A stretch of 38,805 nucleotides of DNA from positions 1 to 38,805 of the forward strand of contig CAMVCQ010000010.1 in assembly GCA_947166015.1 (NCBI GenBank). The letters are read 5' to 3'. Numbering within the stretch: the stretch's first letter is position 1; each line of letters opens with the position of its first letter. The translations under genes were made by a program, and so were the position numbers. Of this stretch, positions 6,878 through 29,183 are shown one piece after another. This stretch comes from an uncultured Lachnospiraceae bacterium (GTDB lineage Bacteria > Bacillota > Clostridia > Lachnospirales > Lachnospiraceae). A model generated the notes under the pieces. That model searched no databases and was not told the DNA's origin. It worked only from the letters and a program-made list of their open reading frames with translations.

Positions 6878-9199
6878 TTGAATAATGAAATAATGTACAC
6901 TATTCCGGTTCTTCCGCTTAGAGACATCGTAGTGTTGCCCGGGATGCTCGTTCATCTCGACATAAACCGTGAGATATCTAAGCTTGCCGTCAGAAATGCA
7001 ATGGCCGGCGACGGAACTGTATTTATAACAGCTCAGAAGGATCCTTCGGTGGATGCACCTTCTTTTGATGACCTTTTTGAGGTTGGTGTCATCGGAAAAA
7101 TACGCCAGGAAGTGCGTATGAAGGACAGAGTTATCAGAGTTATGATCTCGACTACGGAAAGAGCCAGGCTTATGGCTCTCAGACAGACAAAGCCTTTTTT
7201 GGAGTGTGAGGCGGCGTCGGTTTCCGATCCTGAAACGGATCTCAAAAGCAATGAGATCCAGGCGATGATGAGAAATCTGAGAGAGATCTACCACGAATAT
7301 CTAAATGAAAACCCGAGAGCCAGCAGATCTGCTCTCGAAAAAATAGACTCCACGGATTCATTGTCAAATCTCATGGATATGATCGCAATGCAGGTAAATA
7401 TAGGATTTGACAAAAGACAGCAGATCCTCGAGTGCCTCGATATCGGACAGAGATATGAGCTTTTGAACGAATTTCTCCTTGAGGAAGTGAACATTTTTAA
7501 GATAAGGGAGGAATACAGGAGCAAAGTCCGTGAGGAGGTAGACAAAAATCAAAAAGAATACTTCCTTCGTGAGCAGATGCGTGTGATCAGAAGTGAGCTG
7601 GGGGATTCGGATGATGAGGATCTGATAGAACAATACGAAAAACAGCTTGCCGAGCTTATCTGCTCGGATGAGATCAGGGAAGCTATCGCAAAGGAAATAA
7701 ACCATTTAAAGCATATTCATTCAAGCTCGGCGGAGCACATAGTGGCTCAGGATTACATAGAGACGCTGCTTGCGCTGCCCTGGGACAAAAAGCTCGAAGA
7801 GCATACTGACCTTGATAAGGCTGAAAAGATACTAAACGACGATCATTACGGGCTTGAAAAGGTCAAAGAGAGGATACTTGAGTTTTTGGCAGTCAGAGTC
7901 CTTACGGACAAAGCGGATTCGCCGATCGTTTGTCTTGTGGGGCCGCCGGGTACCGGAAAAACGTCTATCGCGATGTCGGTAGCCAAGTCTCTTGAAAAAC
8001 CGTACCAGAGGGTGTGCCTCGGAGGAGTCAGAGACGAGGCTGAGATCAGAGGACATAGAAGGACCTATGTAGGAGCACTGCCGGGAAGGCTTATAGAGGC
8101 ACTGAAGGCTGCAAAGGTCAAAAACCCTCTCATACTACTTGATGAGATAGACAAAGTCGGAAACGATTACAGGGGAGATACATCCTCCGCGCTATTGGAG
8201 GTTTTGGACCCCGAGCAGAACAAAAATTTCCGCGACCACTATGTAGATATGCCTGCGGATCTGTCGGATGTGCTGTTTATCTGTACGGCAAATACTACGG
8301 ATACGATAGCAAAGCCTCTGCTTGACCGAATGGAGGTCATACGGATCGCGGGTTACACGGAAAATGAAAAATTCCACATTGCAAAAGATCACCTTGTGGC
8401 TAAGCAATTAAAGAAAAACGGTCTTCTCAAAAAACAGTTAGTGATATCCGACGCTGCGATCAGAGCGATCATAACAGGATATACCAAGGAGGCCGGCGTC
8501 AGAGGACTCGAAAGAAACATCGGAAAAATATGCCGCAAAGCTGCAAGACAGCTGTTGGCTGCTCAAAATGACGACAAATTCAAGCTTCCGATAAGGGTGA
8601 CAGGGAAAAACCTTGCTGATTTTCTCGGCAAAAGAAAGTACCATGAGAACCCTGCAAACAAAAAAGATGATATCGGTATAGTCAGAGGACTTGCCTGGAC
8701 TGAGGTCGGTGGAGATACGCTTGAGATCGAGGTAAACACTATGCCAGGTGAAGGAGCTTTGAAGCTCACCGGACAGCTTGGCGATGTGATGAAAGAGTCG
8801 GCTGAGATAGCGCTTTCTCTCGTCAGATCAATGCTTCCCAAGCAGGATGAATTCTTCAAAAAGAATGATTTTCACCTGCATGTACCTGAGGGAGCGGTTC
8901 CGAAGGACGGTCCGTCAGCGGGAGTGACTATGGCAACTGCACTCTACTCTGCTGTGACCGGAAAAGCCGTTGATTCAAAAACTGCCATGACCGGTGAGAT
9001 CACACTCAGGGGCAGAGTTCTTCCTATAGGCGGGCTCAAAGAAAAGCTTCTGGCGGCGAGACTCTCAGGAATGGAAACTGTTTTCGTACCTGTGAAAAAT
9101 AAACCGGACATCGAGGAGCTTGAAAGCGAGATAACAGACGGTATAGACATCCGGTACGCTGACAGGGTCGAACAGATATTGTCTCAGGTCTTGAATTGA
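6878..9199 (+). CDS. lon: ATP-dependent protease Lon
   Basis: 773 aa from the chosen start. This cytoplasmic AAA+ serine protease degrades misfolded and regulatory proteins. It has an N-terminal LAN substrate domain (PVLPLRDIVVLPGML), a coiled-coil middle, Walker A GPPGTGKTS near 354, Walker B ILLDEIDK, and a C-terminal protease domain. The Ser680-Lys721 catalytic dyad sits in PKDGPSAG and GGLKEKLLAA, close to the usual LonA positions. The frame is open from a TTG at 6863, but GGGAG at 6865-6869 points to the TTG at 6878 (8-base spacer); the ATG at 6893 is a weaker alternative. A non-ATG start may lower translation. It follows clpX closely. Confidence 0.95.
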   Translation: MNNEIMYTIPVLPLRDIVVLPGMLVHLDINREISKLAVRNAMAGDGTVFITAQKDPSVDAPSFDDLFEVGVIGKIRQEVRMKDRVIRVMISTTERARLMALRQTKPFLECEAASVSDPETDLKSNEIQAMMRNLREIYHEYLNENPRASRSALEKIDSTDSLSNLMDMIAMQVNIGFDKRQQILECLDIGQRYELLNEFLLEEVNIFKIREEYRSKVREEVDKNQKEYFLREQMRVIRSELGDSDDEDLIEQYEKQLAELICSDEIREAIAKEINHLKHIHSSSAEHIVAQDYIETLLALPWDKKLEEHTDLDKAEKILNDDHYGLEKVKERILEFLAVRVLTDKADSPIVCLVGPPGTGKTSIAMSVAKSLEKPYQRVCLGGVRDEAEIRGHRRTYVGALPGRLIEALKAAKVKNPLILLDEIDKVGNDYRGDTSSALLEVLDPEQNKNFRDHYVDMPADLSDVLFICTANTTDTIAKPLLDRMEVIRIAGYTENEKFHIAKDHLVAKQLKKNGLLKKQLVISDAAIRAIITGYTKEAGVRGLERNIGKICRKAARQLLAAQNDDKFKLPIRVTGKNLADFLGKRKYHENPANKKDDIGIVRGLAWTEVGGDTLEIEVNTMPGEGALKLTGQLGDVMKESAEIALSLVRSMLPKQDEFFKKNDFHLHVPEGAVPKDGPSAGVTMATALYSAVTGKAVDSKTAMTGEITLRGRVLPIGGLKEKLLAARLSGMETVFVPVKNKPDIEELESEITDGIDIRYADRVEQILSQVLN

Positions 9200-9270
9200 T
9201 CTATAGGTAACTGATGATATTTATAGAGGAAATGTATACGATACAATAGAATTTTGATATTTGCAGTATT

Positions 9271-9942
9271 ATGAAGATAAAAAAACTCGAACTCGAGACT
9301 GTTTGCGGTATAAAAAGTGAGCTTCCTGACAACGATTCCACTGAGGTGGCTTTTTGGGGGAGGTCAAATGCCGGCAAGTCGTCATTATTGAATACGCTGT
9401 GGGAGAGAAAGTCTCTTGCGAGGACTTCCTCGCAGCCGGGGAAGACAAGAACACTGAATTATTATAGGGTGGAGTTTTCCGGCGAAGCGGACGAAAGCGC
9501 AGATGAAACTATGTCTCTGTATATGGTTGACCTGCCCGGCTATGGCTATGCGAAGACATCCAGGCAGACCAGCGAAGCGTGGGAAAAGATGACATACAAT
9601 TATCTCAGCAGATCAAAAATGCTCAAAGGGGTATTTTTGCTGGTGGACTCGAGGCTTGAGCCGCAGGGGACCGATATAGAACGGTTTACAAAGCTGTTCA
9701 AGATAGGATTTGATCCCATCATAGTGGCGACAAAAGCAGACAAACTAAAGAAGAATCAAAGGCAGAAAAATTTGTCAGTCATCTCAAAAAAATTCACCGA
9801 GATAGCTGCGATAATCTGCAAAGAAACGGGAGATGAATTGTCAGATGATTTCAAAATCCCAGTGATCGCTTTTTCGAGCGTGACCGGAGAAGGGCGCGAT
9901 ATGATATGGGAGTGCCTTGAAAACTTTGGGAGGGCTAAGTGA
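9271..9942 (+). CDS. engB: Ribosome biogenesis GTPase EngB/YsxC
   Basis: 223 aa. This TrmE-Era-type GTPase is needed for late assembly of the large ribosomal subunit. G1 is GRSNAGKS (30-37), the switch region carries SSQPGKTRTLN, G3 is DLPGYGYAK (87-95) and G4 is TKADK (154-158). It is somewhat longer than the roughly 195-200 aa typical of the family because of an acidic insert after strand 2 (GEADESADET) and a looser C-terminal part. I see no convincing ribosome site before the ATG at 9271, although no other in-frame start fits. It lies downstream of lon, as in many Firmicutes, and overlaps nth by four bases. Confidence 0.93.
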   Translation: MKIKKLELETVCGIKSELPDNDSTEVAFWGRSNAGKSSLLNTLWERKSLARTSSQPGKTRTLNYYRVEFSGEADESADETMSLYMVDLPGYGYAKTSRQTSEAWEKMTYNYLSRSKMLKGVFLLVDSRLEPQGTDIERFTKLFKIGFDPIIVATKADKLKKNQRQKNLSVISKKFTEIAAIICKETGDELSDDFKIPVIAFSSVTGEGRDMIWECLENFGRAK

Positions 9943-10568
9943 AAAAAACCGAACTTGCGATAGGGCTCATCGAAAGACTTGAGGGAGCGTACCCGATCGC
10001 TATATGCTCGCTTGATTATGACAGTGCCTGGCAGCTTTTGGTAAGTGTGCGGCTTTCGGCACAGTGTACCGACGCCAGAGTAAACATAGTTACAAAAGAG
10101 CTTTTTGAGAAGTATCCCAGTGCAAAAGCGCTTAGTGAGGCTTCTGTGGAGGAGATAACCGATATAGTCCGTCCATGTGGGCTTGGACCTAGCAAGGCGA
10201 GAGATATACACGCCTGTATGAATGTGATCGTCAGCGAGTACAATGGAAAAGTTCCCGATACTATGGAAGCGCTTTTGAAGCTCCCCGGTGTAGGAAGAAA
10301 AAGCGCAAACCTGATCCTTGGAGATATCTATGGGAAGCCTGCGGTGGTTGCGGATACGCATTGTATCAGGATAACCGGGCGGATGGGACTTACCGACGGG
10401 ACGAAAGATCCCGTGAAGGTTGAGATGCAGCTGAGAAAAGTCCTGCCGGAGGACAGATCAAATGACTTTTGTCACAGACTGGTGCTCCATGGCAGAGAGA
10501 TATGTACGGCCAGAAAAGCCAAGTGTGATATATGTCCGTGCGCGGATATATGCAGGAAGAAGATCTGA
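9939..10568 (+). CDS. nth: Endonuclease III
   Basis: 209 aa. It is a DNA glycosylase/AP lyase that removes oxidised pyrimidines in base-excision repair. The helix-hairpin-helix motif LPGVGRKSANLILG carries catalytic Lys121. Asp139 lies in VADTHCIRI. Four cysteines in the C-x6-C-x2-C-x5-C pattern (C189, C196, C199, C205) form the 4Fe-4S site. It starts with GTG, which overlaps the engB stop as GTGA, with a strong GGGAGGG site at 9928-9934; the two are therefore likely translationally coupled. Length is typical for the family. Confidence 0.95.
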   Translation: MKKTELAIGLIERLEGAYPIAICSLDYDSAWQLLVSVRLSAQCTDARVNIVTKELFEKYPSAKALSEASVEEITDIVRPCGLGPSKARDIHACMNVIVSEYNGKVPDTMEALLKLPGVGRKSANLILGDIYGKPAVVADTHCIRITGRMGLTDGTKDPVKVEMQLRKVLPEDRSNDFCHRLVLHGREICTARKAKCDICPCADICRKKI

Positions 10569-10677
10569 TACAATATCATATGAGGATAAATTCGGAAGAT
10601 AGATACATATTTTTCAAAAATCAAATATATAAATATCCTACAAAAAGAAGCCTGTGATTAATCCAGGTGGCTGAAGC

Positions 10678-10710
10678 TTGTCTGAAGCATATTGATGTAG
10701 TAAATATAAT
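10678..10710 (+). promoter_or_regulatory. Possible promoter of the AI-2E permease gene
   Basis: TTGTCT at 10678-10683 and TAAATA at 10701-10706 are 17 bp apart, with an overlapping TATAAT at 10705-10710. It lies in the 172-bp gap between nth and the permease gene. I see no clear terminator for nth in that gap, only a weak CCTG/CAGG stem near 10655. This is a modest consensus match. Confidence 0.4.
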
Positions 10711-10740
10711 AGAGATATATAACAAAGGAGATTTGGAAAA

Positions 10741-12012
10741 ATGAAAATCATGAAGGATGAGTACAAAAGGTACCGCTACTGGGGAGTGACTATTTTTCTG
10801 GCTCTCGCGGCAGTAGTGTTGTTGAACATTGTTCTCGGAAGTGCCGGGTTCATACTCAAAGTGCTTTCGACGATTGTTTCCGCTCTTTCGTCCGTATGGA
10901 TCGGTATGATCATAGCTTACCTTTTGTCTCCTGTAGTGAGGCTTATGGAGGAAAAGCTTTTTATCCCATTGTTTTGCAAGATGACGAAAAAGGATAAAAA
11001 AGGTGTTGCAGGATTGGCGCGAGGTATTTCCGTGACATTGTCGATCCTCCTCACTCTTGCGTTGATAGTTGGATTGCTGGTTCTCGTAATACCACAGGTT
11101 GTAAACAGCGTAGTAAACCTTGCTAAACAGGCCCCGGGATATGGAGAGACGATCAAAGGCTGGTTTGATAAGCTTTTGGCGGACAATCCTTCGTTATCGG
11201 GAATGCAGGGATTTTTAAATGAAGCTTTGGACAAATTGAAGCATTGGCTGCAAAACGATCTGCTTCAGTCGGCAAACCTTCTTGGTACCGTGACAAGCGG
11301 TCTTATGAGCGCTGTGGGAATCGTTGTTGATTTCTTCATCGGACTCATCATTTCAATATATCTTCTTGCAAGCAAGGAAAAATTCCTGCTCCAGGCAAAG
11401 AAAATCCTTGCTGCGATATTCAGTAAGAAAAACTACAAAAGGATAATGGCAGCAGCAAAGGAAACACATCACGTATTTGGTGAGTTTATAAGCGGAAAGC
11501 TTATTGATTCGCTGGTTGTCGGAATCGCGATGTTTATCCTGATGTGGATTATCGGGATACCTTACGCAGTGCTTATCAGCGTGGTGCTCGCGGTTGCAAA
11601 CCTTATACCGTTTTTCGGTCAGTTTATCGGTATCATACCGACTGCACTCCTTGTATTTGTGGAAGATCCTGTCAAAGGACTTATATATGTAGTAGTGGTT
11701 GTTGTGTATATGCAGTTTGACGCAAATGTAGTAAGCCCGAAAATCCTCGGAGATTCGATTGGACTTGGAAGCTTCTGGATACTGTTTTCGATCATTCTTT
11801 TCGGCGGACTTTTCGGAGTATGGGGAATGCTTATAGCAGTGCCTGTATTTGCAATGATCTACCGCTGGTGCACACGATTCACAAACAGGCATCTGAAGAA
11901 AAAAGGATTGCCTGTAGAGGCATTTGCATACAATTCTCCCGGAGAGGATGTGACGGTGCCGGAAGAAGTTGTAGATGCCGGAAAGGATGAGAAAAATGGC
12001 GGGGAACAATAA
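10741..12012 (+). CDS. AI-2E family transporter (UPF0118-type permease)
   Basis: 423 aa multi-pass membrane protein. There are roughly seven to eight hydrophobic segments. An N-terminal pair is followed by a soluble-looking amphipathic stretch around residues 130-180, and a C-terminal bundle carries the family hallmark NLIPFFGQFIGIIPTALL and later DSIGLGSFWILFSI. Members of this family export small molecules or act as sodium/proton antiporters, and the AI-2 role applies only to some, so substrate is not assigned. AAAGGAG precedes the ATG. The last 17 bases overlap the start of the polysaccharide deacetylase gene, which suggests coupled translation. Confidence 0.88.
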   Translation: MKIMKDEYKRYRYWGVTIFLALAAVVLLNIVLGSAGFILKVLSTIVSALSSVWIGMIIAYLLSPVVRLMEEKLFIPLFCKMTKKDKKGVAGLARGISVTLSILLTLALIVGLLVLVIPQVVNSVVNLAKQAPGYGETIKGWFDKLLADNPSLSGMQGFLNEALDKLKHWLQNDLLQSANLLGTVTSGLMSAVGIVVDFFIGLIISIYLLASKEKFLLQAKKILAAIFSKKNYKRIMAAAKETHHVFGEFISGKLIDSLVVGIAMFILMWIIGIPYAVLISVVLAVANLIPFFGQFIGIIPTALLVFVEDPVKGLIYVVVVVVYMQFDANVVSPKILGDSIGLGSFWILFSIILFGGLFGVWGMLIAVPVFAMIYRWCTRFTNRHLKKKGLPVEAFAYNSPGEDVTVPEEVVDAGKDEKNGGEQ

Positions 12013-19627: not shown

Positions 19628-20353
19628 TCAGTTTACATTGACATAAAAAGTCACCGATTTTGTGACAGCAGAGTGTGTTTTATTTCCCGCAGCTTTTACA
19701 GCTGCCGTGACGGTATAGAAACTTCTTTTTATGCCTTTTTTTACAGTGATTTTCCCGGTTTTTTTATTGATTGTGATATTTTTGTTTCCGGATTTCTTTT
19801 TGTAGGTCAAAGAGCCTTTCGCTTTACTGATTTTCATAGCTTTGGAAACCGCGAGTGAGACGGATTTATTTCTGGTCTCGGAGTATTTCACATTCGCAGT
19901 TTTTCCTTTTATGGCAAGAGGATTCTTTTTTCGTGGAGTGACTTTGATTGATAGTACCTTGCTTCCGGTGATAGTAAATATAGTTGTTGGATGTCCGTCT
20001 TCATATATAGTATCTTCGTTGACATGCGCGGCTCGCAGGTAAACATAATATGTTTTTCCGAGTTTTAGTCCATTGAATGTTTCTTTCATATTCTTTGGAT
20101 CGTTGTAATTATTCCATTCATAACCGAAATCAGGAGAGGACAGTTTTTTATCGCTACATATGACCTGATATATATTCCAATTGTCAACAGCATCCCACGC
20201 AACTGTAACAGAAGACTCCGTGCAGGAAGTGAGTTTGAGATTCTTGGGCGTGGGTGGTGTTGTTTCTGCGCAAACTGCAACAGGAGATGTTGCAAATGAA
20301 AAAACCATAATGGCTGAAATGATAATGTTTGTTGCTTTTTTTATTCTATTCAT
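19628..20353 (-). CDS. Secreted fibronectin type III domain protein
   Basis: 241 aa. A signal peptide (about residues 1-29, ending VAVCAE) is followed by an FN3 domain at about 35-130 (PTPKNLKLTSCTESSVTVAW, later LKLGKTYYVYLRA). A C-terminal Lys-rich beta module (ITINKKTGKITVKKGIKR, then VTFYVNVN) resembles modules often found at the ends of Lachnospiraceae surface proteins. No catalytic domain or sorting signal is visible, so it is probably a secreted adhesion or cell-wall-associated protein. AGGAGG precedes the ATG and a good promoter lies upstream. It shares strand with purA but each has its own promoter. Confidence 0.8.
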   Translation of the reverse strand: MNRIKKATNIIISAIMVFSFATSPVAVCAETTPPTPKNLKLTSCTESSVTVAWDAVDNWNIYQVICSDKKLSSPDFGYEWNNYNDPKNMKETFNGLKLGKTYYVYLRAAHVNEDTIYEDGHPTTIFTITGSKVLSIKVTPRKKNPLAIKGKTANVKYSETRNKSVSLAVSKAMKISKAKGSLTYKKKSGNKNITINKKTGKITVKKGIKRSFYTVTAAVKAAGNKTHSAVTKSVTFYVNVN

Positions 20354-20507: not shown

Positions 20508-20536
20508 TTTACATTTTTAAAAATCTGTGGTATCAT
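20508..20536 (+). promoter_or_regulatory. Promoter of the four-gene Hsp70-like cluster
   Basis: TTTACA (20508-20513) and TATCAT (20531-20536) are 17 bp apart, about 70 bp before the first start codon. I see no other good promoter until after 27631, so this probably drives all four genes. Confidence 0.65.
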
Positions 20537-20603
20537 AACAATATCTATGTGATTTTACTCAGATGAAACACTTTATGTGGTGATGTTTATTTCGGAGGAG
20601 AGC

Positions 20604-23600
20604 ATGCGCGATAAGATTTACGCCCTTGCAAAAGGGAACTTCACATACGAAGCGCCGAAGCTTGTGATAGAGCCTGAGAAGCTGACGGGAGAGATTGTCA
20701 GCGGACAGAAGGAAACTATTTCTTTTTCCGTATCCAATGCGAGACATACCAATCTCAAGGGCTTTGGTTTCGTTGGCGCGACCGAGATCACATTTTTGCC
20801 GGTATTTGAGGGTGAGGACAATATCCTTGAGTGTGAGGTGGACGCAACAAGCCTTATTCCCTCCGATGAATTAAAAGGGTCTCTTATGCTCGTGACCGAT
20901 TGTGGTCAGATCAAGGTTCCATATGATTTCAAGATCGTTGCTCCTGTTTTGACAGAGGAGGACGGTTCTGAGGTTCGTGATTATTTCACATTGCAAAAAA
21001 TAACTGAAAATGAGCCTGCCGACGGGTTGGCTCTGTTTCGTGATCCTTTGTTCAAGGAAACATTTTTGTACAGAGACCCCGAAGGTAAGCTTATATATGA
21101 CAGACTCCTCAAGGCTAACACCGGTCTTTCCGGCATGGAGGAGTTTTTGGTCGCCTATGACAAAAAGCAGGCAGTGAGATTTGAGGTCTACCACGGCTCG
21201 GAAAAAGTGGCAGACGAACTCGCCTATGAGCTTGACGGCAGCGATATAGACGAGGTTTTCAACATAAAAATGAACACATGGGGCTCTATAGCGATCAAGG
21301 TGATCGTTGAGGGAGACTTCATTGAGTGTGACAGAAAAATTCTCTGGACGGACGAATTCATCGATGATGTAGGACGATTTGAATTCAGGATAATGTCCGG
21401 CAAGGTCAGACAGGGCAGGCATTTTGGAAAGATCACATTTATAAGTCCGTATGAGGAGAGGACGGTTGGTATCAGTGTCCACTCGCCTGTCGGCACAAAA
21501 GAAAGAAAGATAAACCGTGCAAAGCAGACTGTCCAGGCTATGCTCATCAGAAGCTATCTCGCGTTTGAGGAAGGACGCGTTGAGATGGACGAGTTCGGAG
21601 CATTTTTGCAGAAAAACCGCCAAGTGATAGAACGACTTGATATCCCGGGGATACTTCCGCTGAAAGGCTATATAGCGTGGATACTTGGTGATGAAGCCGG
21701 AAAGCTTGATTTTTACAGAGAGACAGAAAAATACACCCAGCCCGCAGTGGGGCGCGCTCAATCAACGGTCGAGGAATACGTGATGACGCTGTATGTGAAA
21801 TACATGTATTCGAGACGAGAGGATGAGCTTAACGACCTTCGCGCGCTGGTAGATATGTACCTGGATAACGGATATATGAGCGCTACGATGCTTTTGGTGA
21901 GGCTTCGTTGCGGCGTTCCCTACGATACAAACGGAGCCAAAGCTGTGGAGAGTCTCAGAGAGCAGATGGCACACGGAAGCGGTTCGCCGTTACTCTACTC
22001 TGAGCTTATGAGGCTCTATGTGGCACATCCGGAGCTTCTTCACGAGCTTGATGCCGTGAACCTGAGGACTCTTTTGTATGGGTTGAAAAATGACCTCTTC
22101 ACGGAGGAGCTGGCAGAAACAGTCAATGTCCTCGCTGAGGGAAGAGGGCTTCCTATCATAGAAAACATCTCCGGCTACGGTATGATCAGATCCGATGATT
22201 CCCTGAATGTCGGCACCGGAGCGTTGCTTATGCAGGCACTTTTTGCGGTTTACAAAAGGTATGAGATGGAGGATACACTCAAGTGCATCTGTACACTCCT
22301 TATCCGCCACGAAAAGCGCGATAGAAGGTATCATACCTGGTATGAAAAAGGAGTCGAGGGCAGAGAGAGGCTTACAGACCTTTTTGAATACTATATATAC
22401 TCGATCGATCCGAAGGACAGATCACCGCTTCCGCCGGTTGTTCTGTCGTACTTCCAATACGAAAATCACTTAAATGACACGAGAAAAGCATATCTGTACG
22501 CAAACATTCTTTCAAACAGAGAGGAAAACCCGGAGGCTTATGAGGCTTATGAACCACAGATAAGGGAGTTTGTAACGGATCAGATCAAAAAAGAACGAAT
22601 TACCGCTGATCTTGGATATTTATATGAAAATATCCTTGATGTCGGTACCGCTATGGAATTAAAAGAGCACCTTCCGCATGTGATGTTCAGGCATATCCTG
22701 ACCTGCGACGTGAAAGGCATAGAGAGTGTGACGGTTGTCCCGATCCATACGATGACCGAAAAAACATATCCTCTTGACCATGGAAGGGCTTTACTTGAGA
22801 TATACTCGCCCGAGTACAGGCTGTTTTTCACGGACAGGGACGGCAATCAATACACCGGAAGTGTTGATTATACGCTTGAGAGGTTTTTTGACGGCGACGC
22901 GTATGCGCTAATCTGCTATCCGGAGCCTGTGATCCCTGAGGAGGACGAAGGCGAGTCGGCTGAAAATGAGGCTGAAGCGGTCGGGGTAAAACCTGCACTG
23001 AAAAATGAAGAGATCCCCGAAAACCTGATTTTTGCAGTGGCTGTGGAGGCTGAGAAAAAAGCCAAGCTTGATATCAGGGAGATGGATGCGCTCAAAAAAG
23101 CGCTTGAGACAGGGAAGCTCAGGGAGCATTTTTTGGGAAAGGTCCTCATCAGGCTGTACGACCATATCATGGAGAGGGTGCCGGAGGACAGAAGGGAAAA
23201 AGAGCTTTTAGAGCTTGCAGGATATATAAAGCCTGAGTGCATCAAGAGAAACAGGGCGGGCGAGGTGGCGTCCGAGTGCATCAATGCAGGAGCGTTTGAT
23301 ACTGCTTTTGCACTGCTGTCAAGGTATGGAAGAAATGGCTGCGCTGAGGATGAGCTTGCCAAACTTGTTAAATATAAAATTAATAATTCTCCGGATGAGT
23401 ATATGGATATGGTCGTGAAGTGGGCGCTTTGGCTTTTCCGAAAAGGCAACAGAGATCACGCTATCCTGAACTATATCCTTAAGTATTATCTTGGAGATAC
23501 CGATGTGCTTGTTTCTGTTTTCAGGGAATCCCTGAAAAGGAAGAGCAAAGGCAGCGGTCTTGATCAGCTAAATGAAAACAAGGATTATATCAAAGCTGAC

Positions 23601-24362
23601 CCGAAATTCTATGAGAGTGTCAGGGAGAGGCTTTTGGGGCAGGTGCTTTTTGCGTGCGAGGATCCTACCGCCACAGAGGACATTTTTGAAGAATACTTCG
23701 AAAACGGCGAAAACAGAGTGCTTGTTAAGGCTTATCTCGGTCAGATTGCGTATGAATATCTCGTGGGAAGAGTGAAAATAAGCGAGTTCTCGTTCGAAAA
23801 GATATATCATCAGGCAAGGTACGAGTCAGAGCCTGTGATGGTTCTCGCAGCACTGAAAAAATTAGCCGAAAAGGATACATACGATGATGCAGAGACCGAC
23901 TTCATTGAGAGAAGCCTTGAGGAATACGCCCTTGAGGGACGCGTTCTCCCGTTTATGAAGGAGTTTACGGGAGACATGATCGTACCGTATGAGGTCAGGA
24001 CGCCTGTTATCGTTCAGTATTACAGCGGTACGGACAGAGGTGTGCATCTGTTTGTCGGAAAAGGCGATTCGTATGAGCAGATTCCTATGACAAAGGTGTT
24101 TAATGGCATCTATGCCGCTACTCTGCTGATTTTTGCGGGCGAGGAAACGACGGGTTACATATACGAAGAGGAAACCGGCAAAAGGTCAAAAGAGTTTGAA
24201 CTCAGGAAAAAAGACACCTCAGCAGGCAACGAAAGCCTGTTTGAGCAGGTAAATGCTATGATAGAAGCCAAGCAAAAAGGTGATGACGAGGGCTATGCCA
24301 ATATCAGGAAAAAATACCTGACATTCAGACACGCGGCAGACAGCCTGTTTAAGCTTTTATAA
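20604..24362 (+). CDS. Large multidomain protein of unknown function (DUF5717-like)
   Basis: 1252 aa from the ATG at 20604, which has GGAGG five bases upstream; the frame is open from 20577. I recall similar large proteins in Lachnospiraceae annotated DUF5717, but have not checked. There is no signal peptide or membrane segment, so it is probably cytoplasmic. A beta-rich N-terminal part (to about 300) has immunoglobulin-like strands such as GEIVSGQKETISFSVSN. Helical repeat stretches of TPR or HEAT character follow (about 330-690 and 840-1130), split by a beta segment with an acidic loop near 780-800. The protein ends in another beta domain and a short helical tail. It looks like a scaffold. 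It leads the cluster with the Hsp70-like gene 80 bp downstream. Confidence 0.75.
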   Translation: MRDKIYALAKGNFTYEAPKLVIEPEKLTGEIVSGQKETISFSVSNARHTNLKGFGFVGATEITFLPVFEGEDNILECEVDATSLIPSDELKGSLMLVTDCGQIKVPYDFKIVAPVLTEEDGSEVRDYFTLQKITENEPADGLALFRDPLFKETFLYRDPEGKLIYDRLLKANTGLSGMEEFLVAYDKKQAVRFEVYHGSEKVADELAYELDGSDIDEVFNIKMNTWGSIAIKVIVEGDFIECDRKILWTDEFIDDVGRFEFRIMSGKVRQGRHFGKITFISPYEERTVGISVHSPVGTKERKINRAKQTVQAMLIRSYLAFEEGRVEMDEFGAFLQKNRQVIERLDIPGILPLKGYIAWILGDEAGKLDFYRETEKYTQPAVGRAQSTVEEYVMTLYVKYMYSRREDELNDLRALVDMYLDNGYMSATMLLVRLRCGVPYDTNGAKAVESLREQMAHGSGSPLLYSELMRLYVAHPELLHELDAVNLRTLLYGLKNDLFTEELAETVNVLAEGRGLPIIENISGYGMIRSDDSLNVGTGALLMQALFAVYKRYEMEDTLKCICTLLIRHEKRDRRYHTWYEKGVEGRERLTDLFEYYIYSIDPKDRSPLPPVVLSYFQYENHLNDTRKAYLYANILSNREENPEAYEAYEPQIREFVTDQIKKERITADLGYLYENILDVGTAMELKEHLPHVMFRHILTCDVKGIESVTVVPIHTMTEKTYPLDHGRALLEIYSPEYRLFFTDRDGNQYTGSVDYTLERFFDGDAYALICYPEPVIPEEDEGESAENEAEAVGVKPALKNEEIPENLIFAVAVEAEKKAKLDIREMDALKKALETGKLREHFLGKVLIRLYDHIMERVPEDRREKELLELAGYIKPECIKRNRAGEVASECINAGAFDTAFALLSRYGRNGCAEDELAKLVKYKINNSPDEYMDMVVKWALWLFRKGNRDHAILNYILKYYLGDTDVLVSVFRESLKRKSKGSGLDQLNENKDYIKADPKFYESVRERLLGQVLFACEDPTATEDIFEEYFENGENRVLVKAYLGQIAYEYLVGRVKISEFSFEKIYHQARYESEPVMVLAALKKLAEKDTYDDAETDFIERSLEEYALEGRVLPFMKEFTGDMIVPYEVRTPVIVQYYSGTDRGVHLFVGKGDSYEQIPMTKVFNGIYAATLLIFAGEETTGYIYEEETGKRSKEFELRKKDTSAGNESLFEQVNAMIEAKQKGDDEGYANIRKKYLTFRHAADSLFKLL

Positions 24363-24442
24363 TTGATGGATGCCGGTGCTGCGGATGCCGATCGGTGGAA
24401 AGCAGCAGCGACAGTGCTCGTAATGGAGGATAGTGTAAAAAA

Positions 24443-25636
24443 ATGGAAGAAAGAACACTTCTTTTGGGAATGGATCTCGGAGACGAGATATCCCAGCTTG
24501 CGGTATATGATCCCGAGCTTATGGAGCCTGTTTTGATGGGGCAGTCCGAGGACAATCCGGATGCGCTTATCGAAACAGCTGTTGAGTTTTCGGGACATGA
24601 ACCCATAAAAGGCTTTCTTGATGCTGTCAAAAAAGGCGAGACCATCGACAACTCCGGCAAGGAGGTCGACTCTGTTCGTGTACTGGCTTATTATTTCAAA
24701 AAAGTTCTGGCTCTCACCAGGAAGCGTTACCCCGGAGAAAAGATAAAGCTTCTCGTGGTGACTGTCACTGATATGAGCAAGGAGTTTACTGACAGGATAT
24801 ATGAAGCACTGGCGCTTATCGGACTTGAGGGCGACAGGGTAAAGGTCACCGATCACAAAAGAAGCTATATGTACTATGTCCTGTATCAGAAAAAAGAGCT
24901 TTGGGCTCAGGATGTAGGACTTTTTGACTACAACGGCGAAAAACTGATATTTGAGCAGCTCCAGATAGACAGGCAGCACGAGCCTGCGCTTGTGGGAGTA
25001 AAAGAGGTTGACTACACGGATGCGCTCAAAGACGGCGGAGATATCACTCCGATAGGTGATATTTTTGAGAATGTTTTTGCGAGCGCCCTCAGAAACAGGT
25101 TTATATCATCGGTCTTTATGACAGGAGAGGGCTTTGAGGAAGAATGGGCCGACGAGCTGTTCCCGAAGCTTGCAGTAGGCAGAAGACTGTTTAAAGGCAG
25201 AAATCTCTATGTGAGTGGCGCTGCCTACACAGCAAAAGAAATGGTGCAGGAGCGGTTTTCGGACTATGTCGTGGTGGCTCCGGATATGGTGACCTCAAGG
25301 ATATCGATGGAGCTCTATGAGGACGGCGGAGTCAAAAAAGTACAGCTGACCGGAGCGGGACTTCCATGGTTTGAGGTTGACGAATCACTTGATCTGATGC
25401 CGGACGGAGATACAGAGCTTGTGCTTGTCGCGGAGCACATTTTTGAGGGAACAAAAAAAGAATTTATCATAGATATGACTCCTGTTGCCGGAAGGACGGA
25501 CAGGATGTGCAGGATAGGACTAAGACTGCGATTTGAGGATGTTTCAACGGCCATAATCACGCTCAGGGACAAAGGCTTCGGAGAGATAGCCCCCGGAAGT
25601 GACAGGGTTTGGGAGGAGAGAATAAGTTGTTTATAA
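24443..25636 (+). CDS. Hsp70/actin-fold ATPase-like protein (DUF5716-like)
   Basis: 397 aa. The N terminus has a phosphate-1 loop typical of the Hsp70/actin/sugar-kinase fold (GMDLGDEIS, 10-17). A phosphate-2-like DYNG lies near 162-165, and FMTGEGF (225-231) takes the place of the adenosine motif. GRNLYVSGAAYTA (252-264) resembles the Hsp70 segment that closes the ATP site. A beta-rich C-terminal part of about 130 residues follows, in the place of a substrate-binding domain. It is much shorter than DnaK and lacks a lid. I recall DUF5716 for related proteins, unchecked. GGAGG is 13 bases before the ATG, an unusually long spacer. Its end overlaps the next gene. Confidence 0.72.
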   Translation: MEERTLLLGMDLGDEISQLAVYDPELMEPVLMGQSEDNPDALIETAVEFSGHEPIKGFLDAVKKGETIDNSGKEVDSVRVLAYYFKKVLALTRKRYPGEKIKLLVVTVTDMSKEFTDRIYEALALIGLEGDRVKVTDHKRSYMYYVLYQKKELWAQDVGLFDYNGEKLIFEQLQIDRQHEPALVGVKEVDYTDALKDGGDITPIGDIFENVFASALRNRFISSVFMTGEGFEEEWADELFPKLAVGRRLFKGRNLYVSGAAYTAKEMVQERFSDYVVVAPDMVTSRISMELYEDGGVKKVQLTGAGLPWFEVDESLDLMPDGDTELVLVAEHIFEGTKKEFIIDMTPVAGRTDRMCRIGLRLRFEDVSTAIITLRDKGFGEIAPGSDRVWEERISCL

Positions 25637-26400
25637 GATGCTATGGCAAGGTGGCCAAAAAACCTTATATCATGCCCTATACAAAGGCGAAGATCTATTC
25701 GCTTGAGGAGCTGTGCTGCTACATCGGAAGAAACCTCTACACTATCACGGAGGATTTTTTCAGAGAATCACTGGTGGAGTGGCTTGACAAGGAAGCGGGA
25801 CAAAAAGAGCTTGCAAAAAAAGTGAACACCATGATCACCAACCGTGAGACTCTCAAAAACCTTGTGGTGACGATTCTTTGCGGATGTGATTATTACAAGG
25901 AAAAAGAGATCAGGGAGTTTATCAGGATACTTGACGAGATAGTGAGCCTGCCGCTTCATGAAAAGAAAAAAATCCGTGCCGACAACTATATGAGAGCGGG
26001 ATTGTACGCAAAAAGCCTTGTGGCGTATCAGCAGCTTTTGTCAGGAAGCTATGCGGGTAATTTTTCCACGGAGAGCTACGGAAATATCCTTCACAACAGA
26101 GGAATTGCGCATTTCTACACGGCTTCTTTCGGGGAGGCGGAGAGAGATTTCAAGGACGCTTACACCAGAAATCATCGCGTGGAGTCGTTGCATCATTTCC
26201 TGTACATGCTGCTTATGCAGGGCAGGGAGGCTGATTTCCAAAGGTCCTGTGTAAGCTGTGGTATGAATATGGCACAGATGGAGGAACTCAGGAAAAAATA
26301 CGAGGCTACGATCGAAGAAACAGATATACCGGAGCCACATGATGATGATATCGATTTATTCAAAGAAGAATTAAGAAAGGCAACCAATGGCGCTATTTGA
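25627..26400 (+). CDS. TPR-like cytoplasmic protein of unknown function
   Basis: 257 aa, starting with TTG at 25627, ten bases after a GGAGGAG site; the frame is open from 25609. The N-terminal 110 residues (KPYIMPYTKAKIYSLEELC onward) are not recognised. Residues of about 115-215 form helical pairs like tetratricopeptide repeats (NYMRAGLYAKSLVAYQQLL, then NRGIAHFYTASFGEAERDF). The tail is acidic. There is no signal peptide or TM helix. It overlaps the Hsp70-like gene by 10 bases and the coiled-coil gene by 14, so translation is likely coupled. It may be an adaptor, or a part that is fused to the ATPase in relatives. Confidence 0.72.
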   Translation: MFIRCYGKVAKKPYIMPYTKAKIYSLEELCCYIGRNLYTITEDFFRESLVEWLDKEAGQKELAKKVNTMITNRETLKNLVVTILCGCDYYKEKEIREFIRILDEIVSLPLHEKKKIRADNYMRAGLYAKSLVAYQQLLSGSYAGNFSTESYGNILHNRGIAHFYTASFGEAERDFKDAYTRNHRVESLHHFLYMLLMQGREADFQRSCVSCGMNMAQMEELRKKYEATIEETDIPEPHDDDIDLFKEELRKATNGAI

Positions 26401-27631
26401 TTTTTTGTTTAAAAGAAGACGTAAAAAACGGAATCCCGACTTTGAAGAAGGTCGGGATGATGTTTTGATGTCCGAAGAAAGAAAAGAAGAAAGTGCTGAA
26501 GTTGATAAGATCATAAATGAAAAGGTCAAGTTCGAAAAAGAAAATGTAGATTTAAAAAACAATGCAGAAAGACTTGCCTATCTCGGACGACTCAGGGATA
26601 CTATCCTCGAGGGACGAAAGCAGTGTGACAATGTAAAATTTGAGTATGGCAGGGTGACATCTTATCTGAAGGACATCCAACTGATAGATAATTGTGATGA
26701 GGAGTACAGACAGACCATTACTGAGGCTGCGGCACATATAGTCGAGCTTACCGAGCAAAGAAATGAGATCAAGCGCAAGAAGTTCAGGATCAGTGAGGGG
26801 CAGAGGGTCGCTCTTGACAGATTTGAGGATGAGGCGCCAAAGGATATAGAAACACTCCTTGAGGCTGAGGACTACCAGGTCAAGATCAGAAATGACTTAA
26901 GGAGACTCAGCGGAGAGAAACATCTGCTTGAGGATGAAAAAACAGACATCAACCGCAGACAGAAAACCTTGAGAAGCATTACCAAGGCTCTATTGGTCAT
27001 TGTTGTCATTATTGGGGTGGCGCTTGGCGTGGTGATGGCAGTTTATGATGTGGATATCACGGTACCGTTTATCGCGACGGCGGCGTTTGCATTTTTGGTT
27101 GCGGCGATTATTCTTGCAGAAGCCCGCAGAAACCGCATGGATATGGTCGTTACTGAGATAAAGCAAAACAAAGCCATAGCGCTTACAAATCAGGTAAAGA
27201 TCCGATATGTCAATAATGTCAGGACGATGGATTATCTGTGCGCGAAGTACAGAGTCAGAGGTGCGACAGAGCTTGATTTTGTCTTCAGTCAGTACAAGGA
27301 AGCAAAAAGAGAGTGGGCAAGGCAGAGAGAAGGCACGATCCAGATCGAGGAAAATCACGAGATACTGATAAATGCCCTTGCAAAGATCGCGGTCAGGGAC
27401 AGAGAAATATGGTTTTCTCAGGCAAAAGCGCTTATCGATCCCTCTGAGATGGTAGAGGTCAGACACGAGCTCAATGTCAGACGACAGAAGCTTCGCGAGC
27501 AGCTTGATTACAATACATCCGTGATGACGGAGTGCCTGAATGAAATGGAAAAAATACAGTCAAAAAAGCCTGAGTACGCCAGAGATGTCGAGAGGATACT
27601 TTCCGAGACCAAGGAATTTAAAGTTAAGTAG
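26387..27631 (+). CDS. Coiled-coil protein with two central membrane helices
   Basis: 414 aa, not a characterised family. It starts MALFDFLFKRRRKKR, an amphipathic/basic N terminus that may touch the membrane. A highly charged helical stretch (about 30-195) has strong coiled-coil character. Two membrane helices follow (about 200-220 and 226-244) with a short loop, then a second long charged helical part (250-414). Both long arms should face the cytoplasm. AAGAAAGG precedes the ATG, which overlaps the TPR-like gene by 14 bases. It probably anchors the cytoplasmic proteins of this cluster to the membrane. A new promoter follows its end. Confidence 0.75.
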   Translation: MALFDFLFKRRRKKRNPDFEEGRDDVLMSEERKEESAEVDKIINEKVKFEKENVDLKNNAERLAYLGRLRDTILEGRKQCDNVKFEYGRVTSYLKDIQLIDNCDEEYRQTITEAAAHIVELTEQRNEIKRKKFRISEGQRVALDRFEDEAPKDIETLLEAEDYQVKIRNDLRRLSGEKHLLEDEKTDINRRQKTLRSITKALLVIVVIIGVALGVVMAVYDVDITVPFIATAAFAFLVAAIILAEARRNRMDMVVTEIKQNKAIALTNQVKIRYVNNVRTMDYLCAKYRVRGATELDFVFSQYKEAKREWARQREGTIQIEENHEILINALAKIAVRDREIWFSQAKALIDPSEMVEVRHELNVRRQKLREQLDYNTSVMTECLNEMEKIQSKKPEYARDVERILSETKEFKVK

Positions 27632-27710: not shown

Positions 27711-29183
27711 ATGAAACGGACAAATAGCTCAAAAGCCCTGATTTTTCGAAGGGTTATGGCTATGATGATCGCTTTTGCCTGTGCGATTTCGATAGCGCCG
27801 TCAAGCGCTTTTGCAAAACAGGCTTCGAAAAAATCAGATGAAACAACGGTTACGGAAGTGTCGGGATACAGAGATGTCATCATCTCAAATGGTTTCAGTG
27901 GTACCGAGAAAGCATATGATGGGAATTATTTTGCTATCGGAGATCACGGACTTTTGACATTTTCCAAAATCTGTGCAGAACCGGAATGTCCGCCGGAGCT
28001 CACACAAACCCAGGCAGAAGACGAATTCAAGGACGCAGAGATCAAATACACGGTCGTTGAAGGCGAGCAGGTTGTGGATATAGATGAAAAGACCCACAAT
28101 TACACGCTCCTTGCCGGAGGAAAAGCGGTTGTCAATCTTGAGGCAACGGTTACGGTTGACACTGACGGAACTGATATAGACGGAAATCAGGCTGAGCCGG
28201 AGACAGTATCCTACACAGCGACATATACATTTTGCGTGATGAGTGATCTGTCAGGTGTGAAACTTGAAAAGGATGCTATCTCGTTGTGCACGGTTCCGAA
28301 ATACGGTCAGAGCACTGCTTCAACAACGGTTGTACTTATGGATTGTCCAAATATCGAATACAACACATTTACATACAAGCTTTCAAACAAAAAGGTTAAG
28401 GCGAAAATTTATGTCAATGCCAGAAAAAAGATTCTTGACATCACGGTCTCGGGCAAAGGCACTGCGACGGCAACACTTACGATAAACGGCACAGAGTTTA
28501 AGCTCAAGATCACAGCCAAACAAGTATCCATAAACAAAGACACCTGCTTTATCGACAAAGGAAAGAGCGTGAAACTCAAGCTGACAGGCTATGGCGACAA
28601 GGTCGCTTGGAAATCTTCAAAAAAGTCTGTTGCAACGGTAAGCTCAGCCGGCACGGTAAAAGGAAAAAAGATCGGAACGACCATCGTGTACGCAGATGTG
28701 GAAAATGTCCGTATCGGGTGTGCGGTATCGGTCGTGAAAAAAGGCATGACAAAGGTTGTCAAAAGAGCCATAAAGATAGGCGCAACCTGCAAATACTCGC
28801 AGCCTCGCAGGATGCAGAAGAAGTACTATGACTGCAGCTCGCTGGTTTGGAGATCATACAAGCTTATCGGTAAGTACTTTGGACTCAGAAACTGGGCGCC
28901 GACCGCTGCTGACGAGGCGAGATGGTGCAGCAATCACAAAAAGCTTATCGGTAAGTTCAAGTGGAAAAAATTCAAAAAGTTCTACTACAGACCGGGAGAT
29001 GTGCTATTTCGCGTAGGCGCCAAAAACGGCAGATACAGAGGAATCTATCACATAGAGATGTTTGCCGGCTACAGAGTGGTGGGCTTTGACGATGAAGGAA
29101 AGCCATACATCAACATGGTTTGGGCAAACAGACCGGATAATTACTACGATGACTGCTATGGGGACATTTTTGGCAGACCTTGA
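27711..29183 (+). CDS. Secreted Ig-like and NlpC/P60 cell-wall peptidase
   Basis: 490 aa. A signal peptide (to about 36, ending SAFAKQ) is followed by a beta-rich region of Ig-like modules. The clearest, a group 2 bacterial Ig-like domain, lies at about 272-341 (VAWKSSKKSVATVSSAGTV, then GTTIVYA). The C-terminal domain (355-490) has the NlpC/P60 pattern: YDCSSLVWRSY with catalytic Cys375, YRPGDVLF, and HIEMFAGY with His447. Such enzymes cut peptidoglycan stem peptides. The CGGGGG ribosome site is clear. It may be cotranscribed with the cluster upstream, but it has its own promoter-like sequence. Confidence 0.85.
   Translation: MKRTNSSKALIFRRVMAMMIAFACAISIAPSSAFAKQASKKSDETTVTEVSGYRDVIISNGFSGTEKAYDGNYFAIGDHGLLTFSKICAEPECPPELTQTQAEDEFKDAEIKYTVVEGEQVVDIDEKTHNYTLLAGGKAVVNLEATVTVDTDGTDIDGNQAEPETVSYTATYTFCVMSDLSGVKLEKDAISLCTVPKYGQSTASTTVVLMDCPNIEYNTFTYKLSNKKVKAKIYVNARKKILDITVSGKGTATATLTINGTEFKLKITAKQVSINKDTCFIDKGKSVKLKLTGYGDKVAWKSSKKSVATVSSAGTVKGKKIGTTIVYADVENVRIGCAVSVVKKGMTKVVKRAIKIGATCKYSQPRRMQKKYYDCSSLVWRSYKLIGKYFGLRNWAPTAADEARWCSNHKKLIGKFKWKKFKKFYYRPGDVLFRVGAKNGRYRGIYHIEMFAGYRVVGFDDEGKPYINMVWANRPDNYYDDCYGDIFGRP

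Follow-up and report, generated by a model that had tools for sequence, protein, structure and literature searches.

A lineage-universal, chaperone-derived gene cluster of Lachnospiraceae built around a degenerate Hsp70

Two described systems stand nearest to the gene cluster examined here, as far as the relevant sections of the literature go: the GTPase-linked HSP70-GrpE loci and the yeast ribosome-associated complex (RAC). In passages of two papers (PMC8476630, PMC7083937), Ssz1 is portrayed as a lidless protein able to bind ATP but not to hydrolyse it, and as a platform that positions the active Hsp70 Ssb. The GAP1-N2 GTPase-centric systems with an HSP70/GrpE theme, as set out in parts of Kaur et al. 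2020 (PMC7159879), include in some cases a second Hsp70 without a peptide-binding domain, together with a fusion of beta-sandwich and tetratricopeptide repeat (TPR) segments, two-helix membrane proteins and vWA domains; that paper's parts on HSP70/GrpE systems make no mention of DUF5716 or DUF5717. The cluster considered here lies on a contig of an uncultured Lachnospiraceae bacterium (assembly GCA_947166015.1, contig CAMVCQ010000010.1, positions 1 to 38,805), and this whole stretch of 38,805 nucleotides (nt) is called the window. Its four genes encode a DUF5717 protein (gene 1), a DUF5716 protein (gene 2), a TPR-type protein (gene 3) and a coiled-coil membrane protein (gene 4). Together they make up an undescribed, lineage-universal cluster that derives from chaperones and centres on a degenerate Hsp70. 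No published description of the cluster, or of a function for DUF5716 or DUF5717, was found in open-licence PubMed Central.

Gene 2 matches the Pfam family DUF5716_C (6.2e-86). By descent and by fold its product is a member of the Hsp70 superfamily, with an actin-type nucleotide-binding domain (NBD) followed by the beta part of the substrate-binding domain (SBD-beta). A profile of 33 DUF5716 proteins from the family, compared with solved structures, recovered DnaK only (six sequences with E no higher than 1, the lowest 6.8e-5). An AlphaFold2 model of gene 2's product (mean predicted local distance difference test score, pLDDT, 91.1) has Hsp70 matches over its full length. Against DnaK, 360 residues aligned across residues 5-397 with a Z of 20.2 and a root-mean-square deviation (rmsd) of 8.1, the domains being shifted; against chains holding the NBD only, which include Ssz1 (4gni, Z 19.2) and Sse1, Z was 18-19.7 and rmsd 3.7-4.6. 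In a check for an alternative of the PilM/FtsA/MreB type, all 50 of the 50 structural matches listed were Hsp70s, and no non-Hsp70 fold appeared in the Foldseek/VIA match lists, absence from which proves nothing. The NBD spans residues 4-270 and SBD-beta about 270-397. An SBD-alpha lid was not found in the 397-residue protein, which ends where DnaK residue ∼504 aligns. The GFGE motif of SBD-beta is among the best-conserved parts of DUF5716, with D376, G378, F379 and G380 of the window protein invariant. The preliminary description of this DNA had given gene 2 an Hsp70/actin fold, which profile and model uphold, and had put the DUF5716 and DUF5717 names to some members, which Pfam confirms.

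It had also cast gene 2 as a working nucleotide switch, and here the residues disagree. Twelve positions, in E. coli DnaK numbering, were read with the window genome's own DnaK (L191) as the alignment ruler, in 33 family proteins (set A1) and separately in 96 from loci L071-L170; the genomes of the two sets partly overlap. Equivalents of K70, E171, D201 and G342 occur in 0/33 and 0/96, T11 in 2/33 and 2/96, and D194 in 20/33 and 51/96. The slot is degenerate as well in a larger operon carried by other families of the order, where the DUF5716 protein, H2, has K70, E171 and D201 in 0/12, T12 and T199 in 1/12, and D8, D194 and both adenosine glycines in 12/12. Its companions H1, H3 and H4 are intact at each of the 12 positions in 12/12 proteins. 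From these residues DUF5716 very likely does not hydrolyse ATP, and the switch reading is probably wrong because only a degenerate Hsp70 has been kept and its catalytic residues (Lys70, Glu171, Asp201) are lost. An active, ATP-driven DUF5716 powering envelope assembly, secretion or cell shape would fit the Hsp70/actin-type NBD fold (Z ∼19 to the NBDs of DnaK and Ssz1) and the conserved remnants of the DxG and TGxGF motifs; set against the residues missing throughout the family and H2 and kept by H1, H3 and H4, it is very improbable, and it was rejected as the leading idea on the residue table.

The larger operon gives the cluster its context. Twenty loci from the order Lachnospirales outside Lachnospiraceae (L171-L190) have one relative gene order throughout and 8-9 genes: DUF5717-N (∼400 residues), DUF5717-C (∼900), H1 (∼560), a GrpE-slot protein (280-645), H2, which is the DUF5716 protein (410-540), H3 (∼545), H4 (∼690) and a TPR protein (∼390), with a gene 4 homolog in 5/20. 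DUF5717-C is fused or shortened in L174, L175 and L184-L186, there is an insertion in L190, and L171 has its H4 and its TPR gene each split over two frames. Profiles, which were built from 12 of the 20 loci and so give partly circular counts, found H1 in 20, the exchange-factor slot, H2, H3 and H4 in 19 each, the TPR protein in 17 and gene 4 in 5. H1-H4 and the slot are all present in 19/20, the remaining locus (L189) running off its contig. At L179, Pfam HSP70 matches H1 at 3.1e-75, H2 at 5.0e-20 (plus DUF5716_C at 1.7e-23), H3 at 6.9e-61 and H4 at 7.6e-95, with a vWA domain behind this last match; the protein encoded between H1 and H2 matches GrpE (4.7e-9), and the eighth gene is the TPR gene. 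GrpE was above cut-off in five of the six slot proteins scanned, that of L176 being the one without. The slot protein itself varies from 279 to 645 residues. H1, H3 and H4 are also without a recognisable lid, because their HSP70 matches end near profile position 477-503 of 599; H4 has its vWA domain in that place. One locus, L171 (genome G647, family f143), has the full set, including a DUF5716 near the Lachnospiraceae type; gene 4 comes next and valS after it.

The Lachnospiraceae locus has, in matching order, the fused scaffold, the degenerate Hsp70 and the TPR protein, in most cases also the membrane protein, and no intact Hsp70 or GrpE-domain gene. In a tree of 45 Hsp70s, H2 and five Lachnospiraceae DUF5716 proteins form one clade (support 1.0), and H1, H3 and H4 form separate clades. 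The simplest account of these sequences is that the two DUF5717 genes became one in Lachnospiraceae, that the genes for H1, the GrpE-domain protein, H3 and H4 were lost, and that the TPR protein became shorter. Judged by its residues, the only Hsp70 kept is impaired in the larger operon as well. The genomic place is shared too: a divergent class I/II aminotransferase gene lies upstream of DUF5717 in 3/3 order loci (L177, L179, L184) and 5/5 family loci (L163, L164, L166, L168, L170) scanned, which were picked by gene length, the window itself having other genes upstream. Downstream, valS is found in L171 and L210 and is inferred elsewhere in the family from gene length only. Relocation of the lost Hsp70s within Lachnospiraceae was considered and rejected. 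In a non-exhaustive test, 15 second Hsp70s, fetched from among many family proteins, grouped with DnaK (support 0.60) and not with H1, H3 or H4, and an HSP70 search of the window genome found above cut-off, besides DnaK, only one 355-residue frame covering part of the NBD and of MreB-like length.

In the genomes sampled the cluster is confined to one order and is nearly universal in one family of it. In an even draw across the phylum, 5/398 genomes had DUF5716, the same five had DUF5717, and all five were Lachnospiraceae. Within that family (as defined by GTDB), DUF5716 occurs in 244/250 genomes and DUF5717 in 245/250 (∼98%). Three of the 250 lack both (G426, G488, G621); the absences in G488 (98% complete) and G426 (93%) are possible natural losses, useful for comparison. 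In the order sample DUF5717 occurs in 62/116 genomes, 11 of them in the family, and in 51/105 of the other families, where the protein is mostly split in two. A DUF5716-type match was present in 24/24 genomes chosen from these 51 DUF5717-positive ones and in 0/8 chosen from the 54 negatives. A profile of the divergent order members gave 3 matches in 229 phylum genomes and 6 in 196 class genomes; all belong to the family, and none lies outside the order. We are thus faced with a core, lineage-defining machine without assigned function, unseen in the rest of the phylum in the samples searched. Lachnospiraceae are among the main butyrate-producing gut bacteria.

Gene order had been put forward as a check on the cluster, as had the search for fused members, and both came out in its favour. 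In 108 of 110 family genomes with coordinates for both genes among the matches listed, DUF5716 comes immediately after DUF5717 and on its strand, a conservation far beyond chance; the exceptions are G406, where the contig breaks, and G436, described below. Among at least 80 named loci, a set biased towards Butyrivibrio by its narrow-alignment profile search, gene 2 adjoins gene 1 in 78/80, and a separate gene 3 and gene 4 are found in 77/80 and 76/80, figures that are partly circular since both profiles were built from the same 80 loci. Genes 2 and 3 are fused into one protein of 684-726 residues at five loci (L103, L151-L154), four of which came from 35 re-examined genomes chosen to include odd ones.

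Inheritance also bears on what the cluster is for. Tree distances of DUF5717 and DnaK across 18 family genomes are correlated (r = 0.58, a value reached by 0/10,000 label permutations), and 72,556 plasmid records held no match, which argues for a vertically inherited core function. A mobile or phage-borne system was rejected: there is no plasmid match, and four 'phage' matches are unverified gut-virome scaffolds. Two faecal 'Bacteriophage sp.' records (L210, MT835486.1; L211, MT835988.1) hold an ordinary four-gene cluster in a bacterial neighbourhood, L210 continuing into valS (in two frames) and L211 having an MgsA-type ATPase; both are probably bacterial DNA in virome assemblies.

DUF5717 evolves ∼11 times faster than DnaK (mean tree distance 2.9 versus 0.26), as might be expected of a membrane-associated conflict or defence system in which an Hsp70 regulates a two-helix membrane effector, kin to the GTPase-linked HSP70-GrpE-FNIII/TPR systems. 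The parts of the larger operon (HSP70, GrpE, multiple Hsp70s, beta-sandwich plus TPR, vWA, two-helix membrane protein) overlap with those in section 29 of Kaur et al. 2020 (PMC7159879), and SLATT_1 matches weakly, at E <= 0.1, in 3/29 gene-4 proteins (best 9.9e-6). Nonetheless, such a system is quite unlikely, as the cluster is near-universal, mostly single-copy, vertical and fixed in a conserved locus, unlike patchy conflict systems, and is absent from the plasmid records. No GTPase Pfam match at E <= 1 was seen in the four window proteins or among the matches listed for the eight L179 operon proteins, the flanks having been scanned in part. At E <= 0.01 PADLOC models matched none of the four window proteins; at L179, H3, H4 and the TPR protein gave weak matches to a few candidate models. 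Gene 4 as a SLATT two-helix effector was rejected on its weak matches, the window protein scoring 14.2 bits against a curated cut-off of 41. The pairing of HSP70 with GrpE shared with the GAP1-N2 systems (PF00012 and PF01025, above cut-off in L179) occurs in the larger operon and not at the window locus; the differences are that the operon's identified proteins include neither GTPase nor GAP1, that the cluster is order-specific, near-universal and vertical, and that its full operon has four Hsp70s.

The remaining genes supply the parts of an assembly. Gene 1 matches DUF5717_N (6.7e-175) and DUF5717 (7.5e-48). Its fold was taken from the AlphaFold2 model of an ortholog, L006 (1197 residues; mean pLDDT 85.4), in which a predicted template modelling score of 0.54 makes the packing of domains uncertain. 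The model has beta-sandwiches at about 27-124 and 192-288, a helical solenoid at 297-670, a beta insert, a further solenoid and a beta domain at 1064-1137. Among PDB structures, domains of the PapD/FimC type and of the HYDIN/central-pair MSP type resemble the sandwiches (Z 11-12, rmsd ∼2 over 93 residues), and TPR proteins match the solenoid weakly (Z 9-10.5). The boundary between the DUF5717-N and DUF5717-C genes of the order loci coincides with a low-confidence linker at 290-295 of the model, and gene 1 is, by its sequence, a fusion of two genes usually separate in other families of the order. Gene 3 has sub-threshold TPR matches only in Pfam; its profile matches the order TPR proteins at E down to 1.6e-25, and that of L179 has TPR_2 at 7.5e-24, so that gene 3 can be read as a shortened homolog of the ∼390-residue protein. 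Gene 4 matches no curated Pfam family. Its product is a coiled-coil protein with a membrane hairpin, the sequence having two hydrophobic stretches (starts of the 19-residue windows at 193-215 and 221-229); going by charge and loop length, both ends probably lie in the cytoplasm. It is recognisable in 5/20 loci outside Lachnospiraceae and absent beside gene 3 in several divergent family loci. The scaffold and the TPR-like protein of the preliminary description thus hold up; its membrane link stands for most members and falls as a core property.

The reading we favour, with belief and doubt in balance, is that the cluster is the part that was kept of a dedicated chaperone machine with several Hsp70s, with DUF5716 as a non-hydrolysing, Ssz1-like platform. 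The four products likely form one physical complex because gene order is conserved and members are fused. Within it DUF5716 would hydrolyse no ATP and act as a fixed platform whose SBD-beta binds an internal peptide or, weakly, a client. The beta-sandwiches and solenoid of DUF5717 and the TPR protein would capture and position clients, and the coiled-coil hairpin protein, present in most members but not all, would tether the complex to the membrane. The ATP-driven step formerly carried out by the neighbouring Hsp70s would now be dispensed with or be supplied by the general DnaK and GrpE, much as lidless, non-hydrolysing Ssz1 helps pass chains to the active Hsp70 Ssb in yeast. The platform function with possible hand-over to DnaK is a minority bet. 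Doubtful by a shade more is the bolder proposal of a bacterial RAC counterpart arisen by loss, in which a dead Hsp70 that outlived three active partners and an exchange factor would, throughout the family, serve the cell in an important way as a docking platform free of ATP hydrolysis, loading clients near the membrane onto the general DnaK.

A purely structural assembly, in which DUF5716 is an inert Hsp70-fold building block holding membrane or surface proteins with no link to the Hsp70 cycle, would suit a locus that has neither an intact Hsp70 nor the GrpE-domain protein, as well as the shortened TPR protein and the degenerate NBD loops. That SBD-beta motif conservation ranks among the highest in the protein suggests instead a kept binding function over pure packing, and we consider the structural reading unlikely.

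DUF5716 is lidless and residue-deficient and may in this be comparable to Ssz1; Ssz1/RAC chains are among the best structural matches of its model (Z 19.0-19.5). The cluster differs in being bacterial, in having lost more residues, in a suggested association with the membrane and not the ribosome, and in having no J-domain partner, and because of this last point it is not a RAC. With the DnaK-DnaJ-GrpE system DUF5716 shares the NBD and SBD-beta, and the larger operon has a GrpE-domain partner; the window cluster is set apart by the missing lid and J-domain gene and by having a degenerate Hsp70 only, beside a separate, ordinary DnaK in the genome.

Several points weigh against a non-hydrolysing remnant of a larger machine. 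In Lachnospiraceae DUF5716, D8 is kept in 30/33 and 89/96 and G341, the first adenosine-motif glycine, in all, and by these residues DUF5716 may bind ATP without hydrolysing it; K70 and the second phosphate loop are read with the least certainty, the alignment being of low identity. Loss in Lachnospiraceae, as opposed to gain elsewhere, is the direction suggested by how much more widely the full operon is spread. The complex itself is deduced from order, co-occurrence and fusion. Genes carried separately, which had been named as a sign against one machine, do occur as rare exceptions: in G436 gene 1 is on another contig, flanked on both sides by unrelated genes, with genes 2-4 together, and L135 and L136 (2/80 named loci) have no gene 2 beside gene 1. 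No DnaJ match at E <= 1 was found in the four window proteins, nor among the matches listed for the eight L179 operon proteins (for the L179 TPR protein, the best 25 of 32 families). Recruitment of DnaK therefore has no sequence support of its own, the cluster having no J-domain protein.

Pseudo-chaperones have so far been known mainly from eukaryotic Ssz1 and Hsp110. The cluster raises the question of why a lineage should drop three active Hsp70s and a nucleotide-exchange factor yet retain a dead one, and the passage from full operon to remnant offers a natural series for studying how pseudo-chaperones work.

Table 1. Features of the cluster and their positions in the window
Feature	Position	Strand	Description	Basis
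Promoter-like site	20508..20536	+	TTTACA-17-TATCAT, extended TG, upstream of gene 1	Not significant alone
Gene 1	20604..24362	+	DUF5717 scaffold, 1252 residues	Pfam PF18984/PF18983, ortholog model, PDB matches, split open reading frames in order loci
Gene 2	24443..25636	+	DUF5716, 397 residues	Pfam PF18980, DnaK profile match, model, residue table
Gene 3	25627..26400	+	TPR-type adaptor; TTG 25627 start (or TTG 25609)	
Gene 4	26387..27631	+	Coiled-coil protein with two-helix membrane hairpin, 414 residues	

A check of open reading frames (ORFs) recovered the four plus-strand frames at the positions given earlier, with the last three genes overlapping as described: by 10 nt between genes 2 and 3 (28 nt with the upstream TTG 25609) and 14 nt between genes 3 and 4, after a gap of 80 nt between genes 1 and 2. 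The ATG of gene 1 at 20604 has GGAGG just upstream; an alternative GTG at 20577 would give 1261 residues. Gene 3 probably starts at TTG 25627, which is preceded by GGAGG and fits the orthologs better than the TTG 25609 of the mechanical ORF. One shared promoter for the four genes is plausible; promoter-like sites number 18 in the sequence versus 15.3 +/- 3.7 in shuffles, which is no enrichment. The neighbours at 27711-29183 (+) and 19628-20353 (-) encode secreted-looking proteins, one with a Big_2 domain and the other with a fibronectin type III domain in Pfam; the C-terminal region of the Big_2 protein presumably resembles NlpC/P60 hydrolases.

Many Lachnospiraceae also have a second, separate Hsp70 of ∼565 residues with an intact GIDLGTTN loop (L195-L209). 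It often lies beside a protein of ∼1100 residues with TPRs and/or an N-terminal J-domain (for example L196:6208-7899 with 7899-11267, and L208:1723-6868), and the pair looks like another undescribed Hsp70 module.

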